Source: Actinomycetota bacterium (GTDB lineage: Bacteria > Actinomycetota > Acidimicrobiia > Spongiisociales > UBA5794). From it: a stretch of 33,540 bases of DNA. This document shows, piece by piece, positions 6,925 to 11,905 of the stretch. The translations under genes and the position numbers were made by a program. The stretch spans positions 1-33,540 of the forward strand of contig JAQCAA010000007.1 of the NCBI GenBank assembly GCA_027728645.1, given 5' to 3'. The stretch's first letter is position 1. Each line of letters opens with the position of its first letter. The notes under the pieces were generated by a model that was not told the DNA's origin, searched no databases, and was given only the letters and a program-made list of their open reading frames with translations.

Positions 6925-7575
6925 ATGAAAAGATTGCTTGTCGTAGATGACGTACCGCTCTTTCGAGCTGGACTGACATCAGCCCTCAGAGGCGCTGGAT
7001 ATGACGTGGTCGGCGAAGCCGCAGACGGTGAAACCGCCGTTGCACTGGCCGAAACGTCGCAACCAGACATTGTGCTTCTCGATGTCCTGATGCCTGGGAT
7101 GTCGGGAATCGATGCCCTAGCCAAGATTCGGGCGGTCGCTCCTGAAGCCGCGGTCGTACTTCTCACCGGGTCCGAATCCGAAGAAGACCTCGTTGCTGCA
7201 GTCCGGCTTGGTGCAAGAGGCTACATCGTCAAGGACATGCCGTTCGAACAGCTGGTTCTTTCGATAGACAGTGTTGCGGACGGAGGCGCTGCGCTATCTC
7301 CAGTCATGGCTGGCAAGCTGTTTGATGTTGCCCGCCAATTTGCACTCCATCACGACCTGCTCGGTGTCCGTAAGCCAACGCTGACAAGTCGAGAGATCGA
7401 AGTTCTCGAGTTGGTATCCGATGGCAAGACAAGCAAGCAGATAGGCGATCTTCTTTACATCTCCGAGAACACCGTCAAGAACCACATCCGCAACGTCCTC
7501 GACAAACTTGGCCTGCACTCTCGGAACGAAGCGGTGCTGTACGCGGTACGCGAAAGTTTGATAGTCCTGAGATAG
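6925..7575 (+). CDS. LuxR/NarL-family response regulator
   Basis: Receiver domain (LLVVDDVPLFRAGL, DIVLLDVLMPGMSGIDAL, VVLLTG, GYIVKD) plus LTSREIEVLELVSDGKTSKQIGDLLYISENTVKNHIRNVLDKLGLHSR HTH. Confidence 0.93.
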   Translation: MKRLLVVDDVPLFRAGLTSALRGAGYDVVGEAADGETAVALAETSQPDIVLLDVLMPGMSGIDALAKIRAVAPEAAVVLLTGSESEEDLVAAVRLGARGYIVKDMPFEQLVLSIDSVADGGAALSPVMAGKLFDVARQFALHHDLLGVRKPTLTSREIEVLELVSDGKTSKQIGDLLYISENTVKNHIRNVLDKLGLHSRNEAVLYAVRESLIVLR

Positions 7576-7597
7576 GCGCCGCTCGCTGCGCTCGCTC

Positions 7598-7762
7598 AGA
7601 GGACAGACCGTTCGCTTTGCTCTCTTACGGAGGACAGACCGTTCGCTTTGCTCTCTTACGGAGGACAGACCGTTCGCTTTGCTCTCTTACGGAGGACAGA
7701 CCGTTCGCTTTGCTCCCTCACTATCAGAAGTCCGTCCTCTGTCCTCTGTCCTCTGTCCTCTG
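7598..7762. repeat. Composite repeat element A: four 31-bp units then four 7-bp GTCCTCT units
   Basis: 31-bp units starting at 7599, 7630, 7661 and 7692 (GAGGACAGACCGTTCGCTTTGCTCTCTTACG; the last diverges at its 3' end); GTCCTCT x4 at 7734-7761. Confidence 0.95.
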
Positions 7763-7809: not shown

Positions 7810-10470
7810 ATGTCTGTATTTGACAAAATCTTGCGTGCCGGCGAGGGAAAACGCCTCAAAGAGCTTGTTCAGCTTGCCGAGCGTGTCAACGCGCTCGAGG
7901 CTGACGTTGAGGTGCTCTCCGACGAGGATCTCAAGGCTCGAACGCAGTGGTTCAGAGATCGGCTTGCCGATGGCGAGACCCTCGACGACATCGAAGCTGA
8001 GGCGTACGCCACTGTTCGTGAGGCAGCAAAACGTGTGCTCGGCCAGCGCCACTACGACGTTCAGGTTGTTGGGGCAGGAACCTTGCATCGTGGCATGATC
8101 GCTGAGCAGAAGACAGGCGAGGGAAAGACACTTGTTTCTACGATGCCTGCGTACCTCAACGCGCTGTCAGGCAAGGGTGTCCATGTCATCACAGTCAACG
8201 ATTATCTCGCCGCCCGTGACGCGGCGTGGATGGGCAACATCCATCGATTTCTCGGCCTCGAAGTAGGTCTCATCCAGGCGTGGATGACACCCGAGGAGCG
8301 CCGTCCCGCGTACGCAGCGGATATCACCCACGGGACGAACAACGAATTCGGCTTTGACTACCTCAGAGACAACATGACCATGAATCCCGAGCACATGGTG
8401 CAACGGGGGCGGGCGTTCGCAATTGTGGATGAGGTCGACTCGATCCTGATCGATGAGGCGCGGACACCTTTGATCATTTCTGGACGCGTCGGAGAAACGG
8501 GCAAGTGGTATTCCGAGTTTGCCAAGATCGCATCACGTCTCCGTATTGAAGATCACTACGAGGTCGATGAGAAGAAGCGTCAGGTTGTGACCACCGAAGC
8601 CGGTGTCACCCGCGTTGAAAAGATGATGAACGTGGAGAACCTGTACGACCACGCAAACGTTGACTTCATTCACCACCTTGATGTTGCTCTGAAGGCCAAG
8701 ACGCTCTATCAACGCGACGTCGACTATCTCATCCGCGGCGGACAGGTAATGATTGTCGACGAATTCACCGGACGTGTTCTTGAAGGTCGGAGGTACTCAG
8801 AAGGCCTCCACCAGGCAATCGAGGCCAAAGAGGGCGTTGCGATCAAGGAAGAGAACCAGACTCTCGCGACGATTACGCTCCAGAACTATTTCCGCATGTA
8901 TGACAAGCTCTCTGGCATGACCGGTACCGCCATCACTGAGGAGGGCGAGTTTGTCGAGATCTATGGACTTGAGGTTGTTGTCATCCCAACCAACCAGCCG
9001 ATTGGACGCGTGGACCAGCCGGATCTCGTCTACGTCGATGAGGAAAACAAGTTCCAAGCGGTGGCCAACGACATCATCGAACGCCACGAATATGGTCAAC
9101 CAATCCTTGTGGGAACGGTTTCCATCGAGAAGTCTGAGAGGCTTGCAGATGCGCTGACACGCCGCGGCATCCCATTCGAGGTGCTGAACGCCAAGCAGCA
9201 TGAAAGGGAAGCCCACATCATTGCCCAGGCCGGCATGCCTGGCGCAATCACGGTTGCCACGAACATGGCTGGTCGTGGAGTCGACATCGCACTCGGAGGA
9301 AACGCCGAGCAACTCGCGGCAGCTGCGCTTCGTAAACAGGGTATCGAGACGACCGAACCGTCGTACGCCAAGCAGCTTAAGGAGCTGACAACCGAGTTTT
9401 CGATTGAAACGGAAAAGAACAGGGAAAAGGTGCTCGAGGCTGGCGGGTTGTACGTCCTTGGTACCGAACGTCATGATTCTCGACGCATTGACAACCAGCT
9501 TCGGGGACGATCCGGAAGACAAGGCGATCCAGGTGAGAGCCGGTTCTACTTATCTCTTCAGGATGATCTCATGCGCAGGTTCGCAAACGACCGTGTTGCA
9601 TCAATAATGTCTCGGCTCAAGATTCCGCCGGACGTCCCAATCGAAGCCAAGATGGTCTCCAAATCGATCGAGCGAGCGCAACGTCAGGTCGAGGGTCAGA
9701 ACTTCGAAATCCGAAAGAACGTTCTGAAGTACGACGAGGTAATGAACACACAGCGAAAGATCGTCTATCGCTGGCGGAATCAGATCCTTGAAGGCGACAA
9801 CACACAAGAGTTGCTTGGCGAATGGCGAAGCGAAGTCGTTGAGAGCACCGTGCTACAGATTGTCGGAGACGTCGACGCGTTCGACTGGGATTGGGATGAG
9901 TTGTCGGTTCGCATGAGTGCGTTGTACGACACCGCCATCTCAAAGTCGATGTTTGAAAACCCTGAGGATGTCGATGCCAATGAACTCGTGGACATGTTCC
10001 TCGAGGAGTCCGCACGCGCATACGAAAAGCGTGAAGCCGATCTCGGCGTCGATGTTGTGAGGGCTCTTGAACGTTCGGTGGTCCTGTCGGTCATCGACAA
10101 CAAGTGGCGCGAGCATCTCGCTGAGATGGATTACCTGCGCTCGGGTATCGGTCTGAGGGCGATGGGGCAGCGCGACCCACTCGTCGAGTATCAGCGAGAA
10201 GGTTTTCTGTTCTTCGAGGACTTTGTCGAATCAACAAAATCTGATGCAATCAGGTACATGTTCCACGTTGAGATCGCGGCTGCAAGCCCGCAGCCTGCGG
10301 CGAGCGGAGTGACGACGTCGAGTGCAAAGTCAGACGGAACGACCCGTCGGCAGGTTCAACGCACCGGCGAGAAGATCGGCCGCAATGATGACTGCCCCTG
10401 CGGGAGCGGCAAGAAGTACAAGCGCTGTCACGGCGCACCCGGTGCGGAACCGCTTCCCGCATCGGCATAG
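7810..10470 (+). CDS. secA: Protein translocase subunit SecA
   Basis: [105 protein letters not shown]-terminal [17 protein letters not shown] 7810 preferred over the ORF-track start at 7648, which lies in the repeat. Confidence 0.98.
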
Positions 10471-11665: not shown

Positions 11666-11667
11666 GC

Positions 11668-11806
11668 AGAGGACAGATCGGTCGCTTTGCTCCCTTACGG
11701 ATGACAGATCGGTCGCTTTGCTCCCTTACGGATGACAGACAAGTCGTTTTGCTCCGCTGGAACGGTAGGCGCAAGGCGGCCTTCTGTCCTCTGTCCTCTG
11801 TCCTCC
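11668..11806. repeat. Composite repeat element B: three 31-bp units then three 7-bp units
   Basis: 31-bp register at 11669, 11700 and 11731 (GAGGACAG / GATGACAG / GATGACAG ... TCGCTTTGCTCCCTTACG; third unit decayed); GTCCTCT, GTCCTCT, GTCCTCC at 11786-11806. Confidence 0.93.
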
Positions 11807-11905
11807 GTCGCCCGCTCGTAATCCGCTGGTTTATTGGAAGCGCCACTACGCTTTCGCTTGGCTGGGATATGGGCCCCGACAACAGCCATTCTTGGATTTT
11901 TACAG

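Follow-up and report, generated by a model that had tools for sequence, protein, structure and literature searches.

The repeat described here occupies positions 7,598 to 7,762 of a 33,540-nucleotide stretch of DNA (the window, contig JAQCAA010000007.1 of assembly GCA_027728645.1) from an Actinomycetota bacterium, in the spacer between a response-regulator gene and secA. Its complementary heptad arrays most likely belong, as arms, to a family of elements that in complete form include a gene of family PF05635, which goes beyond the earlier view of this DNA, made from its letters only (the sequence-only reading). With a probability of roughly 0.7, we take the window repeat to be a non-autonomous, gene-less copy, comparable to a miniature inverted-repeat transposable element (MITE), of a small mobile element resembling the intervening sequences (IVS) of ribosomal RNA, the complete form of which is found twice elsewhere in the same genome. 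This complete form consists of an inverted array of a 7-bp word, a gene for a four-helix-bundle protein of ~120 amino acids (PF05635/TIGR02436, the S23 or intervening-sequence protein) and the same array reverse-complemented. The observations that carry this reading are the anatomy of the elements, the words that arrays have in common with the gene arms of their own genome, the way in which arrays depend on the gene when relatives are compared, and presence or absence of elements at the same spacer. The element is apparently widespread in bacteria and so far undescribed: no paper joining heptad arrays to PF05635 was found among the open-access papers searched, an earlier description elsewhere being possible. 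Below, G000 is the analysed genome (a 1.95-Mb draft), other G numbers are relatives or compared genomes, and C numbers are contigs of G000.

The window copy belongs to the paired kind of gene-less array, with two inverted arms. The left arm (7599..7715, forward strand) is a 31-bp composite unit repeated 3.8 times (Tandem Repeats Finder (TRF), 100% match, score 234), in which a AGAGGACAG heptad box is joined to a core of the TTCGCTTTGCTC type; each unit is made of two heptads or heptad-like stretches (~13 nt) and a palindrome-like core of 18 nt, and units open with GAGGACAG at 7599, 7630, 7661 and 7692. An 18-nt non-repeated link without a PF05635 gene (7716..7733) leads to the right arm (7734..7762, forward strand; TRF 100% match, 4.1 copies, score 58), where four perfect GTCCTCT units span 7734-7761; read on the opposite strand, this heptad gives the AGAGGAC box with which each 31-mer opens. 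The sequence-only reading had described the same units at the same positions, with which sequence and TRF agree, and had noticed the complementarity, which the sequence bears out. Ahead of unit 1, directly 3' of the response-regulator stop codon, stands a REP-like (repetitive extragenic palindromic) sequence, CGCCGCTCGCTGCGCTCGCTC (7577..7597), containing the full palindrome GCTCGCTGCGCTCGC at 7581-7595. Its palindromic core is also interspersed with other heptads in the relatives G002 and G021, which have 31-bp composites with a similar core, AGAGGAC being replaced there by the heptads of these genomes. The arms of the window copy would have become composites, heptad pairs alternating with an 18-nt palindrome, and the 31-bp unit would then have been tandemly amplified.

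The complete form is represented in G000 by two loci. The only two PF05635 genes of this genome, on contigs C65 and C83 (other contigs than that of the window), are each enclosed by inverted heptad arms, with the word CAGAGGA in C65 and CTACCGC/T in C83, and both words recur in gene-less arrays of G000. The window word GTCCTCT is itself found in the arms of the C65 gene, as well as at dozens of intergenic places. The two proteins pass the Pfam and NCBIfam cut-offs for PF05635 (23S rRNA intervening-sequence protein) and TIGR02436 (four helix bundle protein), and both match solved homologues; that of C83 matches 2gsc, which is a toroidal pentamer (PMC4990558). The heptad stem of the C65 element is uninterrupted over ~33 bp (z -6.6).

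PF05635 is present in 28 of the 50 genomes of the taxonomic family. To compare arms at 71 PF05635 loci with both flanks, the left flank was set against the reverse-complemented right flank of the same locus, and a locus was scored when the two agreed better than 95% of mismatched pairs. This was the case for 63 loci: 38 of the 43 from the family, and 25 of the 28 from other phyla. The latter set was selected through the heptad and hence is biased, unlike that of the family and the plasmids of cyanobacteria, which were selected otherwise. The heptad word varies between loci and agrees between both arms of one locus. A period of 7 is the sole one clearly enriched in the flanks, where it appears in 55% and 41% of flanks in the two sets; in control windows located 700-900 bp away the figures are 1% and 0%. 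Among nine cyanobacterial plasmid loci, six present inverted heptad arms, two (both in PCC 7120) a one-sided array and one (Pseudanabaena) direct arms.

Some of these loci deserve a separate description. In a type I-D CRISPR locus on the Pseudanabaena galeata plasmid pPg_01 (L384, 1745-2480), a PF05635 gene is inserted in the cas6-cas4 spacer, flanked by long AAAAGCT/AAAAGCC arrays in direct orientation, and the same spacer of Pseudanabaena sp. ABRG5-3 (L391, 840-930) holds a short AATTACG array without the gene. In Clostridium carboxidivorans, C. aciditolerans and C. muellerianum (L127, L092, L168, L283-L299) the arms are longer (AGAGGACAATTGACAGAGGACAGTGAAGGAGG), the inner palindrome being GGATTTTTC...GAAAAATCC, and clostridial gene-bearing and gene-less copies occur within a single genome.

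Gene-less arrays are tied to the gene in two respects. For 40 of 74 arrays, taken from sampled stretches of seven genomes, the word is common to the array and the PF05635 arms of its own genome, against a mean of 9.7 with the arms of foreign genomes; none of 5000 random relabellings reached 40. Array density is also about five-fold higher in eight relatives with PF05635 (83/Mb) than in six without it (15/Mb, from 5 arrays in 330 kb; G006, which belongs to a genus that includes a genome with the gene, accounts for 4), with a Spearman coefficient of 0.61 (p 0.02).

Relatives differ at the very spacer that holds the window repeat. Between the response regulator and secA, G021 carries a complete gene-bearing element with GTCGCAA arms and G002 a PF05635 gene, while gene-less arrays of other words are found in G001 (GTCTGAC) and G003 (CTCACAG and GAAAGCT). 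The same spacer holds no such element or array in G015, G007, G006 and G009; an empty site sought in G053, the sister of G021, returned heptad matches only, with no match to the flanks. Plasmids of Nostoc offer a comparable series. The spacer beside a gene with a TraM domain, whose flanks are 84-95% identical, measures ~52 bp and is empty in three plasmids, contains gene-less forms in N. punctiforme (a GGCAGGA hairpin) and in ATCC 53789 (a pair of GGGAACA-type arrays), and is occupied by a PF05635 gene between CAGGGAA arms in the Nostoc plasmids of C052 and N. edaphicum. A second Nostoc spacer of 1-4 bp in three plasmids is occupied in N. punctiforme by an element placed between the stop and the start codon. 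Elements are also found in nrdB-nrdA and cas6-cas4 spacers.

The recurrence of the window heptad across the genome is far above chance. It is present at ~50 places in G000, and the 18-mer GTCCTCTGTCCTCTGTCC has 133 matches there with at most 1 mismatch, compared with 0 for the reversed control. A period census of 204 kb of G000 (contigs in numerical order) gave 10 period-7 arrays and 0 of periods 4-6 or 8-13; 360 kb of G001 gave 30, with at most 2 for any other period except the harmonic 14. Words are genome-specific, being of the CAGAGGA, CTACCGT and CAGCTTT types in G000, of the CCGATGA and CAGACGT types in G001, and GTCGCAA in G021 and G053, where this word is found at 67-72 places per genome. 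The exact 22-mer of the window heptad is found in more than 100 contigs from many phyla, often as inverted arms around a palindrome. Absence of further copies and of conservation, which would have told against the sequence-only reading, is not what is seen; there are dozens of related arrays in G000 and, in relatives, the same spacer with other heptads or with the complete gene-bearing element. A second copy in the window (copy B, 11667-11809) occupies the prfB-ftsE spacer. Its left arm, CAGAGGACAG followed by 2.7 units of 31 bp (11667..11755, forward strand; TRF 92% match), lies directly 3' of the prfB stop codon, and its right arm is (TCTGTCC)3.9 by TRF (11782..11809, forward strand); the inverted pairing appears in the RNA fold, which is better than that of shuffles (z -3.5). 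The composite repeat is also present at three further sites of G000, C89:3072, C52:41329 and C146:8407.

The window copy is bordered on the left by the stop codon of a gene for a LuxR-type response regulator (6925..7575, forward strand, from the list of open reading frames), which sits upstream of secA in several relatives too. On the right, secA (7810..10470, forward strand) begins at ATG 7810, supported by a 189-aa N-terminal match. Because this start is common to the orthologues, the longer SecA reading frame is spurious, as held by the sequence-only reading, for which the repeat was unlikely to be coding and was the source of a false SecA extension.

Mechanistically, the heptad arms would be the trans target of the pentameric four-helix-bundle protein, probably when folded into DNA hairpins or cruciforms, and the protein would spread arms or whole elements into spacers adjoining stop codons. 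Afterwards, slippage during host replication or repair may extend, trim and homogenise the 7-bp arrays. The step of mobility is one that we only infer, since neither a target-site duplication nor a catalytic residue was identified.

Several observations weigh against reading the window repeat as a gene-less copy of a mobile element. No target-site duplication is evident in the Nostoc plasmid series, where the spacer is partly replaced, and no catalytic residue was identified in the protein of the element. The arms of the Pseudanabaena copy are direct instead of inverted. In G056 the PF05635 gene is present and a 100-kb sample gave 0 arrays, and in G006 arrays occur without the gene. Solo arrays are frequent among the gene-less ones: of 37 in G001, just 4 have an inverted partner within 500 bp, the same as in the far control, so that inverted pairing is unsupported there as a general trait of gene-less arrays. 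Finally, PF05635 was not found in 9 of the 28 genomes that were chosen for this heptad and searched, some of them isolates, which implies that arrays can occur without the gene or outlive it. The nine genomes with (GTCCTCT)3 and no PF05635 match are G069, G070, G077-G080, G086, G089 and G091; isolates such as Salinicola avicenniae and Streptomyces sp. CB00455 are among these nine, whose arrays are possibly relics or products of independent slippage.

Among known systems, the nearest is the IVS of rRNA genes. That of the Coxiella 23S rRNA gene has 428 nt, complementary ends and an S23 gene of the PF05635 family, and its RNA is excised by RNase III; three tandem heptamers, GACAGAT, stand directly upstream of the S23 gene (PMC4990558). 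The elements described here have in common with such IVS (Coxiella, Leptospira, Salmonella) the PF05635 protein and the complementary termini around an optional small gene. On the other hand, they are found in spacers between protein genes, with tens of arrays per genome, mostly gene-less. Neither the window copies, in the spacers upstream of secA and between prfB and ftsE, nor the PF05635 loci that we examined, all between protein genes, lie inside a 23S or 16S rRNA gene. Complementary termini forming a long stem are present in the C65 element and only weakly in the window copy (z -0.9); the S23 gene, which is optional in short IVS, is present in the C65 and C83 elements and missing from the window copy. 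Since the defining rRNA location is lacking, we file the elements as IVS-like and not as IVS.

Likeness to MITEs lies in the short gene-less copies that share terminal sequences with a gene-bearing element of their own genome, here in the form of shared heptad words, though many gene-less copies are solo. Unlike in MITEs, no transposase or target-site duplication was identified, the arms are tandem arrays, and the word varies between elements. The arrays also have all the traits of heptanucleotide simple sequence repeats (SSRs) or short tandemly repeated repetitive sequences (STRRs), namely a 7-bp tandem unit, intergenic placement and many loci. Such arrays have been reported without an origin in Xanthomonas, Nostoc, Calothrix and Beggiatoaceae (PMC4692102, PMC4679880), and the known cases (the STRRs of cyanobacteria, TAACTGA in Beggiatoaceae, GGGNATC in Xanthomonas and Nostoc) likewise show one or few words per genome and are sometimes inverted (PMC4692102). 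These reports make no link to PF05635, whereas the arrays described here are arms of a gene-bearing element.

The arrays could be ordinary heptanucleotide SSRs produced by local polymerase slippage, with no element involved, which is the 7-nt footprint idea of Mrazek 2007 as relayed by citing papers (PMC4679880, PMC4692102). In many genomes no other class of long SSR is as common as heptads, and in Nostoc PCC 7120 a single 7-bp unit separates two copies that are nearly identical. However, slippage leaves unexplained why a genome repeats one word in dozens of its spacers and the next genome a different word, why the arms around PF05635 match as reverse complements, and why arrays track the gene. 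We regard this account as unlikely, and slippage as the sole cause is strongly disfavoured by the arm test, the array density and the word sharing. An artefact of assembling a short-read metagenome bin is scarcely credible: several contigs of G000 begin or end inside arrays, and the exact unit numbers in its arrays are uncertain, but the same anatomy is seen in complete plasmids of Nostoc, Calothrix and Pseudanabaena and in the complete chromosome of Clostridium carboxidivorans.

Other accounts call on a different enzyme or on RNA. In REPINs (REP doublets forming hairpins), a Y1 tyrosine transposase (RAYT, REP-associated tyrosine transposase) mobilises palindromes in single-stranded form, and the palindromic core, the paired inverted units, the extragenic placement and the tens of copies are all reminiscent of them; the arms here, however, are 7-bp tandem repeats. 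A profile search for Y1_Tnp (PF01797) gave no match in the array-bearing genomes G000, G001, G002, G003, G015 and G021, drafts that are 84-95% complete, several above 90%. A diversity-generating retroelement (DGR), with an Avd-like protein working with a reverse transcriptase, is suggested by the resemblance of PF05635 to Avd (PMC10053308), which belongs to a four-helix-bundle fold family, and by a match of the C65 protein to the Avd model at 1.3e-5, far below the cut-off of that model. Against it, no template/variable repeat system was found here, and RVT_1 (PF00078) had no match in the same six genomes, a reverse transcriptase beyond the RVT_1 model or absent from the drafts staying possible. 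The absence of one gene from all six drafts by incompleteness is unlikely, which argues against both systems; we hold the retroelement to be very unlikely and the REPIN type to be highly improbable. The sequence-only reading had not recognised the repeat as REP/REPIN, CRISPR or the end of an insertion sequence (IS): the latter two denials hold, CRISPR, IS-end and coding-repeat readings finding no support in the sequence, TRF or the list of reading frames, while a REP likeness does exist in form, through the palindromic core, without the REPIN/RAYT system.

A cis-regulatory RNA acting on secA by translational or attenuation control, as proposed for the TAACTGA heptads of Beggiatoaceae, would suit the position in the spacer upstream of secA. 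PF05635 genes are moreover co-oriented with the upstream neighbour at 53 of 69 loci (p 9e-6), with no bias towards the downstream one (37:34). However, relatives carry unrelated words or nothing in this spacer, and copies adjoin unrelated genes. The sequence-only reading had suggested alternative hairpins and a place in the secA 5' UTR or the upstream spacer; such RNA hairpins are not supported, the single-stranded RNA fold of the window copy being no better than shuffles (z -0.92). In 76 elements, arm mismatches that are G-U in the sense RNA number 114 against 109 for A-C (p 0.79). Given these similar counts, the arms seem unconstrained at the level of an RNA stem, and a process at the DNA level keeping arms alike fits better. 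RNA control is about as unlikely as the retroelement, if anything slightly more so.

A broader proposal goes beyond the gene-less copy in the window. Heptad-arm elements may form a distinct class of bacterial mobile elements that moves without a known transposase, recombinase or reverse transcriptase and whose sole gene encodes a pentameric four-helix-bundle protein. Their arms, solo arms or gene-less copies may make up the majority of the heptanucleotide repeats in bacterial intergenic DNA, the STRRs of cyanobacteria among them; we put this forward tentatively, as somewhat doubtful. Heptanucleotide repeats have been noted for decades in many bacterial genomes, with neither origin nor function assigned to them. 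Four-helix-bundle genes of PF05635 are numerous but uncharacterised, and are mainly familiar from rRNA gene insertions. If the arrays are the arms of PF05635 elements, the two puzzles merge into the question of how a protein of ~120 residues with no obvious catalytic domain spreads DNA into the spacers of many phyla. The same proposal, if true, would account for spacer differences among close relatives and for the breaks of short-read assemblies at these places.

Two minor observations concern the surroundings of the arrays. The exact heptad array is present in 19 stretches of viral contigs from IMG/VR (L203-L221); in phages, tblastn with the C83 protein found no PF05635 relative. A second repeated sequence, approximately GGTCCTCCCTTGAGGGAGGACGGGCGAGCCCCGCGAGCCAGGAGGGTGGC, adjoins several heptad arrays on C67, C74, C107 and C119 (L021, L030, L029 and L028) and looks like a separate family of palindromic repeats.
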